Source: Streptomycetaceae bacterium (GTDB lineage: Bacteria > Actinomycetota > Actinomycetes > Streptomycetales > Streptomycetaceae). Taken from it: 64,000 bases of DNA. The translations under genes were made by a program, and so were the position numbers. Under the pieces are notes generated by a model. The model did no database searches. It saw nothing but the letters and a program-made list of their open reading frames with translations, and was not told where the DNA came from. The DNA lies in contig JAFAUH010000367.1 in the NCBI GenBank assembly GCA_019243445.1, forward strand, positions 1 through 64,000, read 5' to 3'. Shown here in pieces: positions 2,952-16,909 of this stretch; within the stretch, counting starts at the first letter, position 1; each line of letters begins with the position of its first letter.

Positions 2952-3151
2952 TCTCGTGGGAGTCCGGGGCCTGTCCCGACAAGCGGCAATGAACTCGCCA
3001 AACCCCCGGACGGCGCACGGAAGAGGGCTGGCCTCCGCTCGGCGGCGGGTGCGGAATCTCTGAGCGGTTTACATGGCGGGCCGGATGCCGACTGCGCGCA
3101 TCGCTGTTGTGCGCGAGATGGGCGGGCTGTCCACCAGGGCGGCAGGGGAAG

Positions 3152-3160
3152 TTATCCACA
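3152..3160 (+). promoter_or_regulatory. DnaA-box-like TTATCCACA
   Basis: A perfect match to the E. coli DnaA box TTATCCACA; Streptomyces boxes are usually TTGTCCACA. A weaker TGTCCACC lies at 3128-3135. One box is not enough to call an origin. Confidence 0.3.
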
Positions 3161-3237
3161 GTGCGGGTCGGTGGGGGGTTGGGGGCGGGCAACGGCCCGG
3201 GGGCGCCCCAACGGCCGCCACAGGCAAGCACACCGCC

Positions 3238-3282
3238 CGGAGGGGGTCAACCAGCGAAAAGCATGCTGGTTGACCCCCTCCG
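3238..3282. repeat. 18-bp inverted repeat with GAAAAGCAT loop
   Basis: Arm CGGAGGGGGTCAACCAGC (3238-3255), loop GAAAAGCAT (3256-3264), and the exact reverse complement (3265-3282). The same nine-base loop tops a different 20-bp stem at 28460-28508, and the shorter AGCGAAGCAT forms the loop at 28400-28425. A kept loop on unrelated stems suggests recognition as a folded single strand, or a shared transfer or replication protein. No T-tract follows, so it is not an obvious terminator. Confidence 0.6.
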
Positions 3283-3430
3283 AACGGCGCGCTAGGGCTA
3301 CGCCCGTCCGCCGGGGCGCCCCCGACCCGAACCCACCCCCGTATGTGGCCTACGGCCGGGGACCGGCCGACGCCGTCGCCAACGTGCCAGCTGACCAGGG
3401 GATTTCACTCGTTCAGATCATGAGCAGGAC

Positions 3431-3550
3431 TTGACCCGACTACCATAAACATGGTTCAATAGATGTGTTGGGAGGGGATGGCAGCCCCCGACCGACACCC
3501 CGGCACCTCCTGGTACCGGGACCAACCCCCTTCGCACACAAGGAGTCGAT
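3431..3550 (+). promoter_or_regulatory. cassette promoter and structured leader, copy 1
   Basis: -35 TTGACC (3431-3436), 18-bp spacer, -10 TTCAAT (3455-3460), then the conserved leader beginning AGATGTGTTGGGAGGGGATG. GUGUUGGG pairs with CCCGACAC-type sequence around a GGGG/CCCC inner stem. A second hairpin CCCGG/CCGGG follows, then ACCCCCTTCGC ahead of AAGGAG and the ATG at 3551. Confidence 0.7.
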
Positions 3551-3949
3551 ATGACGGAATTTCCCCAGAGTTTCCGGGTCACGCTGAACGACGTGGACGA
3601 AGAACGGCCCCTCAACAGTGAGATGGTCGTCACCGCGCTGGAGCGGCGGGAAGAGGCCGACTACTTCGGAGGCCGCCGCGTGGGCCTGTACGCGGCATTC
3701 AAGATGGCCCTGAGGGCCGGCGGCCAGCCGACATCGTTCGGCCTCTCCCGCCTTGAAGGCGAGCCGCACTGGGTCATCGATGACAAGTTCGGGGCGAACG
3801 GGTTCCCGCACTTCTGCCACGGGTTCGGCTCCCGCGTCACCATCCCGCGCACCGTCCGCGAGGAGATCGCCGAGGTACTGGACAACCTCGCCCGCAGCAG
3901 CGGACTCGCCGCCGAAATCGGCGCCGATATCCCGCTCATCCTCGCGTAA
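3551..3949 (+). CDS. hypothetical protein, first gene of cassette array
   Basis: A 132-residue soluble protein starting at ATG 3551, 8 bp after AAGGAG. It has mixed alpha/beta composition: MTEFPQSFRVTLNDVDEE at the start, aromatic and His-rich GANGFPHFCHGFGSRVTI in the middle, and a final amphipathic helix with TVREEIAEVLDNLARSS. I recognise no family. It has its own conserved promoter-leader and is followed by a hairpin at 3958-3986, so it is a one-gene unit. Confidence 0.6.
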   Translation: MTEFPQSFRVTLNDVDEERPLNSEMVVTALERREEADYFGGRRVGLYAAFKMALRAGGQPTSFGLSRLEGEPHWVIDDKFGANGFPHFCHGFGSRVTIPRTVREEIAEVLDNLARSSGLAAEIGADIPLILA

Positions 3950-11342: not shown

Positions 11343-11540
11343 TGGCTTGCCAACTACTCGACAAATAGGGCAAATCATTCGAACTAGAATGAATCCGCTG
11401 GTACGTCAACTACCCAGCAAATAAGAAGAATCGCACAAGAAGGATTATCTATCCGCCCTGACCCTGTGGACACAGAAAAAACTTCCGCGATATGCGCATG
11501 TCGGTGCATCACCGAGTCCGACAGGTCTATGATCACGTAC

Positions 11541-11780
11541 GTGGCAGGAGTACGAGGACTCAAACAGAGCGGCCGGACGGGGAAATTCGACCCGGAAGAG
11601 GTCGTGACCCTGACCCTCCGCTTCCGGCCTGATGACCCATACCGCCCTCTGTACGAGGAGCTCGTGAAACGCCTGGACGTGTCCGGCGCTGAAGTAGCGC
11701 GCCGTGGCATGAAGGCGCTTCACGATGAGCTCAGCCGCACGGGATGGACGCCTGCGGAGGAGGCCCGCATAGCCAGCTGA
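11541..11780 (+). CDS. small regulator-like protein, copy A
   Basis: A 79-residue protein from GTG 11541. This start was chosen because TATGAT (11528-11533), a good -10, sits 7 bp upstream, implying a leaderless mRNA; the paralogue at 14733 has the same arrangement. FDPEEVVTLTLRFRPDDPYRPLYEELVKRLDVSGAEVARRGMKAL gives a strand followed by helices, as in small ribbon-helix-helix-like repressors; that fold is inference. A start at ATG 11529 or 11466 is possible. Followed by a hairpin and structured leader A. Confidence 0.5.
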   Translation: MAGVRGLKQSGRTGKFDPEEVVTLTLRFRPDDPYRPLYEELVKRLDVSGAEVARRGMKALHDELSRTGWTPAEEARIAS

Positions 11781-11790
11781 CAAAAAGAAG

Positions 11791-11809
11791 GCCCCCGCTT
11801 TGCGGGGGC
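11791..11809 (+). terminator. hairpin after regulator copy A
   Basis: GCCCCCGC (11791-11798), TTT, GCGGGGGC (11802-11809). The same element follows copy B at 14992-15008. Confidence 0.5.
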
Positions 11810-11825
11810 GGCCAACAGGACAAAT

Positions 11826-11996
11826 GAAGCTTGCCTGAGGCCCCTCACTCCACGGCTAGCAACCACCGAGGAGCCTCACCAGTAGGAACCCCTGCCAGGG
11901 GGTCCCCGCGAATCCCACCCCGAACGGCTGCCAGGCCGCCGGGTCAGTCTTCTTTTGCCCCTCGTAACCAGAGAGGCCGTTGCCATCGTACCAACA
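11826..11996 (+). ncRNA. structured leader RNA, copy A
   Basis: Homologous to the leader at 15034-15199. Outer stem GAGGC/GCCTC. Second hairpin GGAACCCCT-GCC-AGGGGGTCC. Third hairpin CGGC-TGCCAG-GCCG, then a pyrimidine tract with TTCTTTTG, like an attenuator. Stem bases differ between the copies while pairing is kept. Confidence 0.5.
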
Positions 11997-12059
11997 GGCA
12001 GCGGTGGCGGTACCTCCATGCCTGGATCCGGTGTGTCTTGGCCGGATCTACATGTCGAC
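11997..12059 (+). repeat. 63-bp repeat, copy A
   Basis: Identical to 15200-15262 except for one base. It includes GGATCCGG...CCGGATC and the start of the small gene at 12018. Flanking sequence is much more diverged. Confidence 0.85.
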
Positions 12060-12209
12060 GAGTTCTGCGACCGCACCGGAACACCGTGGCGATCCACCCA
12101 GCAAGGAGACCTTGCCTGGACGGCGTACCAAGCCGAGCGCCGCCGACGTGGAAAAACCGACGAAGACCCCTTCAGGGCCTACAACCCTTTCCGCCAGGGC
12201 CGCCGCTGA
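12018..12209 (+). CDS. small protein sharing the N-terminus of the Rep-like protein
   Basis: A 63-residue protein from ATG 12018, beginning MPGSGVSWPDLHVD exactly as in the larger protein at 15188; afterwards it is unrelated (EFCDRTGTPWRSTQQGDLAW...). The other copy starts ten or so codons earlier, but here that ATG is ATC, so a start at 11955 or 12018 must be used. It may be a truncated duplicate, a competitor of the larger protein, or a coding by-product of a conserved DNA/RNA element. Confidence 0.4.
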   Translation: MPGSGVSWPDLHVDEFCDRTGTPWRSTQQGDLAWTAYQAERRRRGKTDEDPFRAYNPFRQGRR

Positions 12210-12517
12210 CAGACAGCCCCAGTGTTCAGGAAACTGAACGCCGTAGCGGTACTGCTTGCTCGGATACTCCCCGGAGCCCAAAAACTCAAACGGTCCCTGC
12301 CACGGGGGAAGCAGGGACCGCCGGGGCCGTGCCTCGGGGGAGGGGCACGGTGCTGTCAGCGTAATAGATCAGTCGGCGAGCGGGTCGTAGAGCACTCGCC
12401 GCGCGGCTGCCGTCCAACAAGGGAACCATCACCGGCCCGATCCACGGAGGCCGCCGCCCACCCAGCACTGCCGACGACACGCCACCGAACGTCTGCACGG
12501 TTGCGCACCCCGCCCCA
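12210..12517. other. hairpin-rich intergenic region before helicase
   Basis: About 300 bp without a gene. Perfect hairpins: GTTCAG/CTGAAC near 12223-12238; CGGTCCCTGC/GCAGGGACCG at 12291-12300 and 12311-12320; CCGTGCC/GGCACGG at 12327-12333 and 12344-12350; CGGCGAG/CTCGCCG at 12374-12380 and 12395-12401. Some are likely terminators; the density could also mark a replication region. Confidence 0.45.
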
Positions 12518-12529
12518 TTTCCGTAACAT
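12501..12529 (+). promoter_or_regulatory. promoter of helicase gene, probably leaderless
   Basis: -35 TTGCGC (12501-12506), 17-bp spacer, -10 TAACAT (12524-12529). Transcription would begin near 12536, about at the GTG at 12538, so the mRNA would have almost no leader. The -10 lies inside inverted-repeat site O1. Confidence 0.5.
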
Positions 12530-12547
12530 TCATGTGCGTGACGAAAA
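12518..12547. promoter_or_regulatory. CGTnAC-N10-GTGACG site O1 (helicase promoter)
   Basis: TTTCCGTAAC (12518-12527), 10-bp gap, GTGACGAAAA (12538-12547). It covers the -10 and start codon, the position expected for a repressor operator. The same motif recurs inside four genes. Confidence 0.6.
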
Positions 12548-14520
12548 TGGTTGATGGGGTATCCGCAGATGGAGTGGTGGTGATCGAGCAGGCGGCGCCG
12601 ACGTGCGAGGGGTGCGGCAAGCCGCTACCTCCGCCCACACCGGGCAAGGGACGCCCCCGCGCGTACCACAACAGCACCTGCCGCATGCGAGCCCACCGCA
12701 AGAAGCGCCAGCCCGGCCGCGCCGAGGCCCTGGTGATCCTCGCGGACCTGCGTCTACCGGTCATCAGCGAGCGCGCGTTGGACCAGCTCGACGCGAAAAC
12801 ACTGGCCGAGGTGATCCGGCAGGCCCAGGCCGCCCGTACCGCCCTCGCCCGGCTCACCGAACTCATCCCCGCCGAGCCCGCTGTGAACGGCACCGTCGCT
12901 ACCGTGCCCGCCCAGTCGGCGGCCGGCGACGAACTCGCCGAGCACCAGGCCACCCCCGAGCAGCTTGCCGTCCCGGTCCCGGAGTCGGCCAGCGTCACCG
13001 AGGAGCCGGTGACGCAAACCCCGGCGCCCGTCGCCCCGCCGCCGAGCGAGGCCCCCGCGGTGCAGCTGCGCGAAGTGGCCGGCATGCGGCCCACCGCCGA
13101 GCAGGCCGCCATCATCGACGCGTGCGCCTCCGGCGTCGACCTGGTCGTTGAAGCCGGCGCGGGCACCGGCAAGACCACCACGCTCCGCATGGCCAGTACG
13201 CAGATGCGCGGCCGCGGACTGTACGTCGCCTACAACCGCTCCATCGCCCAGGACGCGAAGAAGGCGTTCCCGGCACACGTGCAGTGCTCCACCGCGCACA
13301 GCCTCGCGTTCCGGGCCCACGGCCGTGACTACAAGCACCGGCTCAACCTCCGTGTCCCGGCCCAGCGCACCGCCGAGCTGTTGCGGATCGTGGAGCCGTT
13401 GCGAGTCAATCGCGACATCGTGTTGGCGCCGGCCGCGCTCGCCCGGCTCGCCTCCGACGCGGTCGACGCGTTCGCCTACTCCGCCGACACCGAGGTGATG
13501 GTCAAGCACGTGCCGCCACTCGAAGGGGTGACGCGGGCGGAGATGGAAGAGTTGCGGCGCGAAATCCTGCCGCACGCCCGCCGACTGTGGCGCGAGACCC
13601 AAAACCTCGACAGCCAACACCGGTACACCCACGACTACTACCTGAAAGCGTGGGCCCTCACCTGCCCGAAGCTGAAGGCGGACTTCGTGCTACTGGACGA
13701 GGCCCAGGACTCCAACCCCGTGGTCGCGCACCTCGTGCAGGCCCAAGACGCCCAGCGCATCGCCGTGGGCGACTCCGCCCAGGCGATCTACGGATGGCGC
13801 GGAGCCGTCGACGCGCTCGCCACGTGGCCCGCCCAAAAGCGCCTGTACCTACAGCAGTCATGGCGATTCGGGCAGGCCGTCGCCGACGAGGCGAACCGGT
13901 GGCTTAACCAGGTCGGTGCCCCCATCCGCCTCTACGGCAACCCCGCCATGAAATCCCGCGTCCTGCCCGGGAGCTGCGGCGAGTACGCCGATGCCGTGTT
14001 GTGCCGCACCAATGCGGAGGCGATGGCCCGCGCCATGTCCGTGCTCGAAAACGGTCGCCGCCCGGCCCTGGTCGGCGGCGCCGGCCAGATCAGGGCACTG
14101 GCCGAGGCCGCGTTGGACCTACGATCCGGCCGCCCCACTAGCCACCCCGAACTACTCGCGTTCCAGACGTGGGACCAGCTCCGGCGGTACGTCCGCGACG
14201 AGAACAGCGGCAGCGACCTGCGGGTGTTCGTCCGCCTCATCGACGACTACGGCCCCGAGCAGGTCATCAAGGCCGCCAACGCCCTGGTCGAGGAGAAGGC
14301 CGCCGACGTGATCCTGAGCACCGCCCACAAGGCCAAGGGCCGCGAGTGGCCCACCGTCCTGATCGCCTCCGACTTCAGCGAGCCCAAACGGCAGGAGAAC
14401 GGCGACCCCGGTCCCATCCGCCGCGACGAGGCGATGTTGGCGTACGTCGCCGTCACCCGCGCCCGCCTCACACTCGACAACGAAGGACTCGCCTGGATCA
14501 ACGAGTACGACCAGCTGTAG
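12532..14520 (+). CDS. UvrD/Rep-family superfamily 1 helicase with N-terminal Zn-ribbon
   Basis: Up to 662 residues (ATG 12532; GTG 12538 and ATG 12547 are alternative starts). Residues about 25-55 hold CEGCGKPLPPP...STCRMRAHRKK, a zinc-ribbon-like site. A Pro/Glu linker carries site O2. The motor core has motif I AGAGTGKTTT (about 207-216), motif II LLDEAQDSN, motif III GDSAQAIYGWRGA, motif V TAHKAKGREW and motif VI YVAVTRAR, as in 3'-5' UvrD/PcrA helicases that unwind DNA with ATP. The core is shorter than PcrA (2B domain reduced). Next to a probable initiator it may serve plasmid replication; inference. Confidence 0.85.
   Translation: MCVTKMVDGVSADGVVVIEQAAPTCEGCGKPLPPPTPGKGRPRAYHNSTCRMRAHRKKRQPGRAEALVILADLRLPVISERALDQLDAKTLAEVIRQAQAARTALARLTELIPAEPAVNGTVATVPAQSAAGDELAEHQATPEQLAVPVPESASVTEEPVTQTPAPVAPPPSEAPAVQLREVAGMRPTAEQAAIIDACASGVDLVVEAGAGTGKTTTLRMASTQMRGRGLYVAYNRSIAQDAKKAFPAHVQCSTAHSLAFRAHGRDYKHRLNLRVPAQRTAELLRIVEPLRVNRDIVLAPAALARLASDAVDAFAYSADTEVMVKHVPPLEGVTRAEMEELRREILPHARRLWRETQNLDSQHRYTHDYYLKAWALTCPKLKADFVLLDEAQDSNPVVAHLVQAQDAQRIAVGDSAQAIYGWRGAVDALATWPAQKRLYLQQSWRFGQAVADEANRWLNQVGAPIRLYGNPAMKSRVLPGSCGEYADAVLCRTNAEAMARAMSVLENGRRPALVGGAGQIRALAEAALDLRSGRPTSHPELLAFQTWDQLRRYVRDENSGSDLRVFVRLIDDYGPEQVIKAANALVEEKAADVILSTAHKAKGREWPTVLIASDFSEPKRQENGDPGPIRRDEAMLAYVAVTRARLTLDNEGLAWINEYDQL
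12993..13014. promoter_or_regulatory. CGTCAC-N10-GTGACG site O2 (inside helicase gene)
   Basis: CGTCAC at 12993-12998 and GTGACG at 13009-13014, followed by CAAA. Encodes VTEEPVTQ in a disordered linker. Confidence 0.6.
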
Positions 14521-14528
14521 GCCGCCAA

Positions 14529-14583
14529 CTCCCGCCCACCTTTCCGTCACGCCACAGGAGCGTGACGGAAAGGTGGGCGGGAG
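14529..14583. terminator. 23-bp perfect hairpin after helicase gene
   Basis: Left arm 14529-14551 and right arm 14561-14583 pair over all 23 bp, with a 9-nt loop. The top of the stem is TTTCCGTCACG/CGTGACGGAAA, so it also resembles the O-type inverted repeat, with 11 bp between half-sites instead of 10. Likely terminator, possibly also a protein site. Confidence 0.65.
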
Positions 14584-14732
14584 GCTCAAGAACTGACATC
14601 ACGCCAGGAAGAAATGAAATAGGGCAATCCGGCCACAACTTCCCTTCTGAACCTGTGGTGGACAGAAAAAAACTCCAGCAACACACCGAAGGATGTCCCG
14701 GACGACCATGGCGATGCTCTACGATCTTCACT

Positions 14733-14978
14733 GTGCCACCCTCACGAGGCAAACAGCAGCGCGGAAAGACGGCCCAGTTCAAGCCGGACCGCCCGATCCG
14801 CGCCGAAGTCGAGTTCGCACCCGGTGACGAGCCGTACCGCCCCGCGTTCGAGTGGCTGGTGCATGACATGGGCGTGTCCGGAGCTCAGGTACTCCGCGAG
14901 GCTGTGATGGAGCTCTGGCAGAAGAGGGCCGCTCAACGGGGCATGACGCCGGAGGAGGCTCAGCAGATAGCCAGCTGA
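14733..14978 (+). CDS. small regulator-like protein, copy B
   Basis: An 81-residue paralogue of the 11541 gene. GTG 14733 is 7 bp after TACGAT (14720-14725), again suggesting a leaderless mRNA. Shared pattern: V..R....RGKT..F.P.....V.F.P.D.PYRP..E.LV....VSGA.V.R..M..L......R.G.TPEEA..IAS. Short strand then helices, possibly a DNA-binding dimer. A related AGAAAAAACT-containing sequence lies upstream of both copies. It precedes leader B and the Rep-like gene and is a candidate copy-number regulator. Confidence 0.5.
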   Translation: MPPSRGKQQRGKTAQFKPDRPIRAEVEFAPGDEPYRPAFEWLVHDMGVSGAQVLREAVMELWQKRAAQRGMTPEEAQQIAS

Positions 14979-14991
14979 CGACATAAATAAG

Positions 14992-15008
14992 GCCCCCGAG
15001 TAGGGGGC
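14992..15008 (+). terminator. hairpin after regulator copy B
   Basis: GCCCCC (14992-14997), GAGTA, GGGGGC (15003-15008); counterpart of 11791-11809. Confidence 0.45.
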
Positions 15009-15033
15009 GCGCCAACAGGGACAAAAGAAGATC

Positions 15034-15187
15034 ACCGAGGCCCCTCGCCTCAAAACGGACGCCAATCCAGCCGAGGAAGCCTCACCCACTAGGGACCTTG
15101 CCAAGTCCCTGCGAAACCCAACCTGACGGTTGCCACGCCGTCGGGCCGGTCTCTTTTGTGCCCACACAGAGGAAGGACACGGCTGCC
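15034..15187 (+). ncRNA. structured leader RNA, copy B (Rep-like gene)
   Basis: Leader of the 15188 gene. Outer stem GAGGC/GCCTC with inner CCTCG/CGAGG. Second hairpin AGGGA-C-CTT-GCC-AAG-TCCCT. Third hairpin GACGG/CCGTC around TTGCCACG, followed by GGTCTCTTTTG. Both lower hairpins show TGCCA at the apex, as in copy A. The layout suits attenuation or antisense control of replication; inference. Confidence 0.5.
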
Positions 15188-16909
15188 ATGATGCCACATG
15201 GCAGCGGTGGCGGTACCCCCATGCCTGGATCCGGTGTGTCTTGGCCGGATCTACATGTCGACACCGCTACCGTACAAAATTTCGAAACCCGTCCGGCTGT
15301 TCTACGGTTCCCGCAGCTCACCGAGCGGGCGTGGTTCCGGACGGTCGGGATCATTCATGACCGCGGTATGCCGTACCGCTTGTACCGGCTGACCGAATTC
15401 CTGTCACAGTGCCGGGTCGACCGCATGACCGGCCGCGTGCTAGGCCTGTGGTTCACCGAGGAGACCGACGGCGGGATGAAGCTCGCCGAGGAGTACGCCG
15501 AGCGCCACCAGCTGCACGCCAAGGCATTTTGGGAGGATTGGGCAGGGTTGCGCACGGCAGGACTCGCGGAACGGGTCGTTGCTCCGGCGCCGGGCCGTCA
15601 CGCCGTCTACGCGCTGTGCCTGCGCACGGAGTCGATCCCCCACGGCCTGCCGGAAGACCTCGCCCGCCAACTGCGCGTGTGGGCCCTGCCCGAGGAGGAG
15701 CCGGCCGAGGAGGAAGACACCCTGTACGGGCGCCTGTCGGAGGCGGTGGACCCCGCATCGTGGGCCGAGCCGGTCACCCACGAGGTAACCGAGCGCCAGG
15801 CCGCCACACTGGCCGCCATGCCACGTTGGGAGCACCCCGACGGCAGCCCGGCCGCCGAAGCGGCCTCAGAGCTCCGCAAGGCGGCCGCCAGGCTGCCCGA
15901 GGAGGAGCGCCCCCGCGAGTGGATCCGCAGCTCAGCGATCGCCAAGCCGGCCACCACCGACCGCCTCGACCAGTGGCTCGAACTCGCCGCATACACCCAA
16001 CCCGAAACGTCTCCTCTATACCGAGAGGGCTCACAACTATCTGGTTTTGGTTTTAGTGCAGGTAGTAAGGGGTTTAGGCCGTCGAAGAACATCGAAGAGA
16101 CAAAGACGACGCCTTCGGCGGCAGCTAGAAGAAGGGGGCTGGTTCCGTCCGGTGACCCGCTGCCCGCCGTCGCGGATCGGGTCATGCGGCGCGCGTGGGC
16201 GGCGTGGAGGCGTCAACTGGGCCGGGACAAGGTGATTTTGCCGGTCGGTGCCGGTTCGCCGTTCACCGAGCGGCACAGCGGCTCGTCCTGGGATGACCTG
16301 CACCGCACGGTGGGGATCGCCTTGCGCCGTGGCGCGACCGAGTCCGAGCTGGTCGAGCTGATCACGCACAACATCCCGGCTGACATCGGCGACGTCAGCC
16401 GCCTTGTGGGGTGGCGGTTGTGGCGCCTGATCAACGCCCGCACCGACGCACTCCCGTACCGCAAGCCCCCAGCGGTGAAGATCGCCGCCCACGTCACCAC
16501 GTGGGACGAGGCCAGCCCGGCCGCCCGGATGCGGATGCGTGCTGACTCCCGCGCCGCAGAACCCGAGGTGCCAGGCACCCCGAACCCGCTCGCCGAAGCC
16601 GCCCGGGCCAAGGCCCGCGAGGAGGCTGAGCGCCGCCGTGCGCAGGCCGAGGCCGAACGCCGGGCCCGGTACGCCCGGTGGGGCATCAGCGTGCAGCCGA
16701 TCCGAGAGCCTGAGCACGTCATGCAGGCCATCGCCGACGAGCTCAACCCGCCGCGTACCGGCGAGGACGCACGAGCTGCTGCCCTGGACAAGGCCCGGCG
16801 CGAGAAGCGCGAACGCAAGCAGGCCCGCACCGTCGACCCCGTCGCCGCCGCCCGGATGCGGGCCCGGCTCGAACGCCTTGGGATCCGCCCCACCAAGGAC
16901 CCGGAATGA
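15188..16909 (+). CDS. putative plasmid replication initiator (Rep-like)
   Basis: 573 residues from ATG 15188, chosen because GAGGAAGGA precedes it by 10 bp. After the repeat-encoded Gly/Ser-rich start, residues about 35-150 read like a winged helix (FPQLTERAWFRTVGIIHDRG, LTEFLSQCRVDRMTGRVLGLWF, AEEYAERHQLHAKAFWEDWA). A second helical domain near 320-430 (MRRAWAAWRRQLGRDKVILP, VGIALRRGATESELVELITHN) precedes a long charged coil (EAARAKAREEAERRRAQAEAE). I recognise no exact family. The DNA-binding look, elaborate leader, helicase neighbour and plasmid context support Rep; a transcription factor is the alternative. Confidence 0.45.
   Translation: MMPHGSGGGTPMPGSGVSWPDLHVDTATVQNFETRPAVLRFPQLTERAWFRTVGIIHDRGMPYRLYRLTEFLSQCRVDRMTGRVLGLWFTEETDGGMKLAEEYAERHQLHAKAFWEDWAGLRTAGLAERVVAPAPGRHAVYALCLRTESIPHGLPEDLARQLRVWALPEEEPAEEEDTLYGRLSEAVDPASWAEPVTHEVTERQAATLAAMPRWEHPDGSPAAEAASELRKAAARLPEEERPREWIRSSAIAKPATTDRLDQWLELAAYTQPETSPLYREGSQLSGFGFSAGSKGFRPSKNIEETKTTPSAAARRRGLVPSGDPLPAVADRVMRRAWAAWRRQLGRDKVILPVGAGSPFTERHSGSSWDDLHRTVGIALRRGATESELVELITHNIPADIGDVSRLVGWRLWRLINARTDALPYRKPPAVKIAAHVTTWDEASPAARMRMRADSRAAEPEVPGTPNPLAEAARAKAREEAERRRAQAEAERRARYARWGISVQPIREPEHVMQAIADELNPPRTGEDARAAALDKARREKRERKQARTVDPVAAARMRARLERLGIRPTKDPE
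15200..15262 (+). repeat. 63-bp repeat, copy B
   Basis: Partner of 11997-12059, one mismatch. Spans the first codons of the Rep-like gene (GSGGGTPMPGSGVSWPDLHV). Confidence 0.85.

Follow-up and report, generated by a model that had tools for sequence, protein, structure and literature searches.

The described systems closest to the locus examined here combine a small repressor protein with an antisense RNA. Specifically, the available portion of the pMV158 source describes a copG–RNAII–repB region in which an RHH repressor gene is followed by an intergenic stretch from which both strands are transcribed and then by the replication gene; the antisense transcript, RNAII, is 48 nt long and complementary to sequence just upstream of the translation start (PMC4485353). 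For pIP501 (copR–RNAIII–repR), the excerpt consulted presents two-part control in which a 136-nt antisense RNA acts against a 329-bp leader (PMC4981023). The Streptomyces theta replicons SCP2, pFP1, pFP11, and pWTY27 are described as a rep gene plus iterons or a Rep-bound non-coding site, and the word "antisense" is absent from that paper (PMC3583192). With respect to translation, Streptomyces infC begins with ATC, and IF3 represses non-canonical starts, including the GTC of sigR, according to the sections available (PMC5472188).

Here, we describe a module that recurs on Streptomyces plasmids and occurs twice in the DNA analysed. We consider it probable, on sequence comparison, that the module controls replication through a CopG-like repressor and an antisense RNA, working as in pMV158 and pIP501 ahead of unrelated Reps. 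The logic would be that of pMV158 (CopG plus RNAII) and of pIP501 (CopR plus RNAIII attenuation). We do not claim membership in either system, since their Rep types are different and the antisense RNA here is a prediction from sequence. As in pMV158, a gene of the RHH (CopG) family lies directly upstream of the replication gene, both in the window and in related loci, and the predicted antisense RNA is complementary just upstream of the translation start. In contrast to pMV158, that RNA would be ~195 nt long, its -10 box overlaps the Rep start codon, the Rep is unrelated, and several cargoes exist; no rolling-circle initiator of the RepB type is recognised, the 573-aa window Rep having no Pfam or NCBIfam match. 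With pIP501, the module shares a small repressor gene (CopR is likened by description), a leader of a few hundred nucleotides, a predicted antisense RNA, and two-part control, but attenuation is only a candidate mechanism here, and most members have weak plus-strand terminators. The theta replicons resemble the module's carriers in that they too are rep-bearing Streptomyces plasmids of comparable size, and the RepB of pWTY27 is a predicted primase/polymerase, a type to which one cargo class here also seems to belong (PMC3583192, in the part available). infC and sigR likewise begin with non-canonical codons, but they are chromosomal genes, and an antisense promoter under the start codon goes unmentioned in the accessible sections of that paper (PMC5472188).

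Layout of the two modules

The window, i.e., the whole 64,000-nt stretch analysed (G000:C359, a contig of a 5.36-Mb assembly split into 414 contigs), contains two modules 3.2 kb apart. Each has the order CopG-like ORF, hairpin, leader, gene, as follows.

Copy 1
11528-11533, plus strand: operon -10 box TATGAT, 8-13 nt upstream of the CopG-like start; the mRNA is probably leaderless
11541-11780, plus strand: CopG/RHH-like ORF, GTG start
11781-11978, minus strand: predicted antisense RNA, ~195 nt, deduced from promoter plus terminator, with its start placed 7 nt downstream of the -10 box
11791-11809, minus strand: antisense terminator hairpin GCCCCCGCAAAGCGGGGGC, tail CTTCTTTTTG; the sole terminator-like site in 11400-12300 (900 bases)
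11836-11878, plus strand: hairpin 1 (H1), from the fold
11885-11905, plus strand: hairpin 2 (H2), TGCCA loop, from the fold
11919-11943, plus strand: hairpin 3 (H3), attenuator candidate, TGCCA loop, from the fold
11944-11957, plus strand: T-rich tract 3' of H3
11971-11976, plus strand: Shine-Dalgarno (SD)-like GAGAGG, 8 nt upstream of ATC
11984: leader end; the cargo starts at 11985
11985-11990: ATCGTA, predicted AUC start codon on the plus strand and -10 box TACGAT on the minus strand, with G at -14 (C at 11992)
11985-12209, plus strand: cargo of 74 codons, a leader-encoded N terminus joined to a C-terminal piece from a different plasmid protein
12030-12037, plus strand: GGTGTGTC element, at a fixed distance from the start

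Copy 2
14720-14725, plus strand: operon -10 box TACGAT
14733-14978, plus strand: CopG/RHH-like ORF, GTG start
14992-15008, minus strand: antisense terminator hairpin, tail CTTATTTATG; one of four scan matches
15037-15083, plus strand: H1, from the fold
15091-15110, plus strand: H2, loop CTTGCCAA, from the fold
15122-15145, plus strand: H3, attenuator candidate, loop TTGCCA, from the fold
to ~15158, plus strand: T-rich tract 3' of H3
15187: leader end; the Rep-like gene starts at 15188
15188-15193: ATGATG in place of ATCGTA, a canonical start codon; the minus-strand -10 is damaged (CATCAT)
15188-16909, plus strand: Rep-like protein gene, 573 aa
15233-15240, plus strand: GGTGTGTC element

A UvrD-like helicase is encoded at 12532-14520, between the modules. 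The first-pass annotation had reported two leaders with a common order and pairing. Both leaders and their named hairpins are present where it placed them; with copy 2 as query, the copies are 76% identical over all 278 query bases (E 2.0e-42), and the minimum-energy folds of both include all three hairpins. Its interval, 11826-15187, encloses the leaders, but the decisive elements lie partly outside it. Its Rep-like gene follows copy 2, but copy 1 precedes a short fused remnant.

Among 12 upstream proteins of the CopG-like family, five match Pfam RHH_1 (best E 2.5e-4). The window's two members have no Pfam match at E<=0.1, and a PDB sequence search with the CopG-like profile gave seven matches, ParD antitoxins included, with E values from 0.23 to 1.5, none significant. 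A TANNAT box begins 12-13 nt 5' of the CopG-like start in 11/12 loci; the sense operons share the box type found on the minus strand.

We propose that each leader serves as the control region for an operon of plasmid replication. Transcription from the operon's promoter (TANNAT, 8-13 nt 5' of the first start) would give a probably leaderless mRNA carrying the CopG-like repressor, the leader, and the replication gene. A second promoter, its -10 box on the minus strand exactly under the replication gene start codon, would drive an antisense RNA of ~195 nt that starts opposite the SD region, spans the hairpins, and ends next to the CopG-like ORF, at the minus-strand terminator. Base pairing of the sense and antisense RNAs would begin at the hairpin loops and block replication gene expression, either through premature termination at hairpin 3 or through SD masking. 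Thus, plasmid number would be self-limiting. The replication gene would start at an AUC or AUA codon, and because these codons are weak, further repression by host IF3 is expected.

Start element and minus-strand terminator

The start hexamer reads ATCGTA in 34 of 40 aligned leaders, ATCCTA in two, ATAGTA in two, ATCATA in one, and ATGATG in one, namely copy 2. ATNNTA is present in 39/40, and the base at +8 is C in 40/40. The 40 leaders are related, not independent, and include a few that are almost the same as one another (L029 and L083); they comprise the 37 used for the terminator and SD counts plus L081-L083. L060, a further match outside the alignment, likewise reads ATCGTAGC. On the minus strand, where the C at +8 becomes G at -14, the element reads G(-14)-n-TANNAT, an extended -10 box lying under the start codon. 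Extended -10 boxes are read by the main Streptomyces sigma factor. A sigma-70 scan gave no full promoter at either window start, with no recognisable -35. Codon 2 varies across the 40 leaders (GTA, CTA, ATA), its third base always being A except in copy 2 (ATG). Since variation in codon 2 spares the A at its third position and the element also persists ahead of non-coding cargo, we attribute the constraint to the nucleotides.

The same six bases would also begin translation. The frame from ATC is open over 35 codons in 32/32 leaders with protein cargo, copy 1 included; stops occur in the other two frames in 31/32 and 13/32. The best SD-like hexamer lies 5-12 nt, mostly 6-8 nt, before ATC (L068 has no convincing one), and in 20/32 protein-cargo leaders there is no canonical start between ATC and the upstream in-frame stop. 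The predicted start codon is AUC or AUA, replaced by ATG in copy 2. Further along, the same frame also has GTG, ATG, or TTG codons (canonical ones near codons 11-17), but these lack a clear SD, so an AUC start is likely and a later one possible. Downstream, GTGTGTC is fixed at +46 from the start in 20/25 loci, also ahead of non-coding cargo. We considered GGTGTGTC as a DNA operator and rejected it, there being no consistent second site upstream and no excess of GGTGTGTC within the window.

Between the CopG-like ORF and the leader lies a hairpin whose T run is confined to the minus strand; it is present in copy 1, in similar form in copy 2, and in the relatives L043 and L064. Strictly defined minus-strand terminators occur in 11/37 leaders versus 3.4% of shuffled regions, the strict scan giving no match in the remaining 26/37. 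Strict plus-strand terminators occur in only 5/37, a count that lends little support to attenuation at hairpin 3. Together, the minus-strand promoter element and terminator delimit an antisense unit of ~195 nt that spans the leader.

Leader folds, rival readings, and divergence of the copies

Fold stability differs between the copies: the z value of copy 2 is -2.75, with 3/200 shuffles equally stable (moderate evidence), and that of copy 1 is -0.26, with 82/200 equally stable, which is no evidence by itself. TGCCA, claimed earlier for each apex, is found in both copies in the loops of H2 and H3 but not in H1. The T-rich tract is present as described, but it begins 3-4 nt past the H3 stem, so by consensus H3 would be a weak intrinsic terminator; H3 of neither copy is among the sites in the terminator scans of both. 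A single A-G mismatch interrupts the copy-1 H2 stem. The stem changes had been called compensatory. Pairing is indeed kept as the H2 arms differ, but that comparison involves two copies only; adding two relatives gives an RNAalifold consensus of 24 pairs, three with a kept double change, a low number because H2 is too variable to align. In a second leader class, 6/31 consensus pairs have a kept double change, and leader covariation is weak overall. What favours the earlier suggestion of an attenuator-like leader under antisense control is the CopG-like ORF upstream, the minus-strand promoter element and terminator, and recurrence before different Rep genes, rather than covariation.

The relative G177 has TGCGA in both loops where both window copies have TGCCA; a loop core shared by H2 and H3 within one leader is expected if one partner meets both loops. 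A fourth relative, L064, has no H2, and its TGCCA is found in H1 instead; in the second leader class TTCCTA is repeated across several hairpin loops. On the antisense strand, the YUNR loop motif occurs in 43/173 distinct loops compared with 18.6% in shuffles, a modest excess; the sense strand has 22/173. SD masking by local hairpins was rejected as an explanation: the mean unpaired fraction over the SD is 0.28 versus 0.34 in shuffles, barely beyond them, and the overall difference is not significant. Rfam 15 families gave no match at gathering cut-off in the window, nor did Rfam in 20 related loci. Searches of open-access papers on antisense control of replication in Streptomyces plasmids, on AUC starts, and on large structured RNAs with such plasmids, judged by titles and abstract openings, gave none that describes the present arrangement.

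Could these features be explained without an antisense RNA? An RNA-binding protein might read the repeated loop motif, TGCCA here and TTCCTA in the other class, and so make or break a terminator. Repetition of a motif within a single leader, as with TGCCA in H2 and H3 of both copies or TGCGA in both G177 loops, fits such a reader. However, the motifs vary between plasmids that have homologous upstream proteins, no candidate RNA-binding protein is recognised beside the module in the window, and a protein reader would leave the minus-strand -10 and terminator without a function; we judge it improbable. A similarly low probability attaches to the idea that the inverted repeats are DNA sites, either iterons or operators, for the Rep or the CopG-like protein. 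This would parallel the iteron-type Streptomyces theta replicons, among which pWTY27 and pFP11 use rep plus iterons according to the available part of the source (PMC3583192). Yet a DNA site would preserve its arms, whereas the H2 arms differ strongly among copies and relatives with pairing kept, and one and the same module stands before unrelated Reps and an RNA.

ATCGTA could, alternatively, be kept merely as a weak AUC start, with IF3 and the leader fold exerting control and no antisense RNA involved. The SD-like hexamer 5-12 nt before ATC and the frame open in all 32 cases agree with this, as does the ATC start documented for Streptomyces infC in the portion of the paper available (PMC5472188). 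Such a scheme does not account for TA being fixed in codon 2 or C at +8, for the element's presence before non-coding cargo (eight loci), or for the minus-strand terminators, and we think it quite unlikely. Antisense control together with a CopG-like repressor is the reading that we favour.

In copy 1, the minus-strand box is intact and the cargo is a fused remnant rather than a Rep gene; in copy 2, ATG is present and a T of the minus-strand box is lost. The best explanation would be that copy 1 lost its replication gene and that copy 2 gained ATG and suffered damage to its antisense promoter. Because the antisense promoter is kept in copy 1 and damaged in copy 2, RNA from copy 1 may act in trans on copy 2, as we tentatively propose; exact runs of 9-10 bases are common to both leaders within the antisense span. 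Positions 11997-12059 and 15200-15262 (GGCAGCGG to CATGTCGAC, 63 bases) differ at one base, beside strongly diverged leaders, which looks like local gene conversion.

Cargoes, distribution, and implications

The module precedes unrelated cargoes: the window-type Rep, primase-like Reps, or, at eight loci, a structured RNA of ~650 nt without a Rep ORF. Among the proteins, the L025 cargo has a sub-threshold match to an archaeo-eukaryotic primase (AEP-TOTE) plus winged-helix matches that are at best close to the cut-offs, and the L016 cargo has winged-helix matches only. The copy-1 cargo joins its leader-encoded N terminus to 54 aa that form the end of a longer plasmid protein elsewhere (CDS 898-1668 of L084). 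Structure prediction for the Rep (four sequences) gave low confidence (mean pLDDT 47, pTM 0.30).

At L014, L015, L017, L022, L023, L024, L046, and L055, the start is not followed by a long frame; a conserved region of ~650 nt is found instead. This structured RNA candidate (L022 ~3060-3780; L047 9660-10480) usually lies directly behind the leader, in the place of rep. An alignment of eight sequences, i.e., seven RNA-cargo loci (L055 left out) and L047, which lacks a leader, yields a consensus fold of 147 pairs, 28 of them with at least one kept double change; in the apical helix (columns 535-551), pairing is held through GC, CG, AU, and UA changes. Rfam at gathering cut-offs gave no match for the RNA cargo in the plasmid loci tested, and a search of the L022 RNA at E up to 5 gave seven weak matches, mostly miRNA-type and all under gathering. 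On two complete RNA-cargo plasmids, L040 (34,066 bp, circular) and L041 (32,797 bp, linear record), relatives of both Rep types are absent at E<=0.01, in a search that recovered 5/5 control loci, and a Pfam scan of ten proteins (eight from L040) recognised none as a Rep. R2, a model of 137 central positions of the RNA, finds it in 3/394 family genomes: G338 with a leader (L055), G068 without one, and G140, where the blastn match covers 78 bases only and the 620 bases read contain no leader. Occurrence of the RNA without the module slightly weakens the idea that it is a primer. That the module drives this non-coding RNA instead of a Rep on some Streptomyces plasmids, with the RNA as replication initiator or primer, is a tentative suggestion that we hold to be on the whole doubtful.

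Relatives of the Rep-like protein occur at 41-48% identity on six Streptomyces plasmids, with a shorter match on a seventh, and relatives of the CopG-like protein on 14; the leader of one relative, used as a query, matches 11. Read locus by locus, the module is present in 19 Streptomyces plasmid records (L004-L009, L014-L025, L046). Its carriers include plasmids of S. tendae 139 and S. chartreusis NBC_00865. R1, a model of the 76-nt start element built on sequence alone from 23 examples, includes by construction both window copies, along with G131, G177, and two further sites in the window's own genome. Among 394 family genomes, it matches 26 at E<=0.001 and 15, own genome included, at E<=1.5e-5. 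We used the latter matches plus L068 (E 3.0e-4, clear start element) and excluded other weak ones, L075 (E 7.3e-4) among them although it reads ATCGTAGC. Some records coincide (L051 with L029, L052 with L028, L059 with L043, and L077, L079, and L080 with L003 and the window copies), the L078 leader is the same as that of L064, and L010 is a Rep fragment alone, without a leader. Homologues of the kind that the first-pass annotation proposed to search for exist in 19 plasmid records and 15/394 family genomes, with weak covariation (3/24 and 6/31 pairs).

In the window's own genome, the module is found four times: once each on contigs C252 and C351 and twice on C359. The modules at G000:C252:9914-9979 (L028, L052) and G000:C351:4589-4661 (L003, L077), one preceding a window-type Rep and the other a different Rep type, suggest several related replicons within one strain. 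At L056 (G273:C1:5086255-5086320), the module is probably integrated in the chromosome, the genome being a single 7.3-Mb contig. In contigs of the family genomes, a peptide-pattern search found no Rep relatives, and alignment found three loci; in viral contigs, both approaches found none, and a single pattern match there was judged chance, as it has no leader, SD, or long frame. Several module plasmids also carry genes annotated "RNase adapter RapZ" (L006 6880-7287; L017 5175-5189, cut; L022 4717-5178; L041 30894-31355). L015 1223-2371, upstream of the CopG-like ORF, matches the NCBIfam EACC1-associated caspase domain (E 2e-11, under the curated cut-off).

If the RNA proved to be an initiator, actinobacterial plasmids without a Rep would start replication from an RNA under antisense control, a ColE1-like logic with a different RNA. 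If the proposed control module is real, CopG-plus-antisense copy control in Streptomyces plasmids would be a portable cassette placed before unrelated Reps and a large RNA. The same six bases would serve a non-canonical start codon as well as an antisense promoter, linking replication of the plasmid to host IF3. The model would explain why 5' ends were missed in annotated rep genes of plasmids, and incompatibility would become predictable from loop sequences, offering a handle for the construction of compatible Streptomyces vectors.
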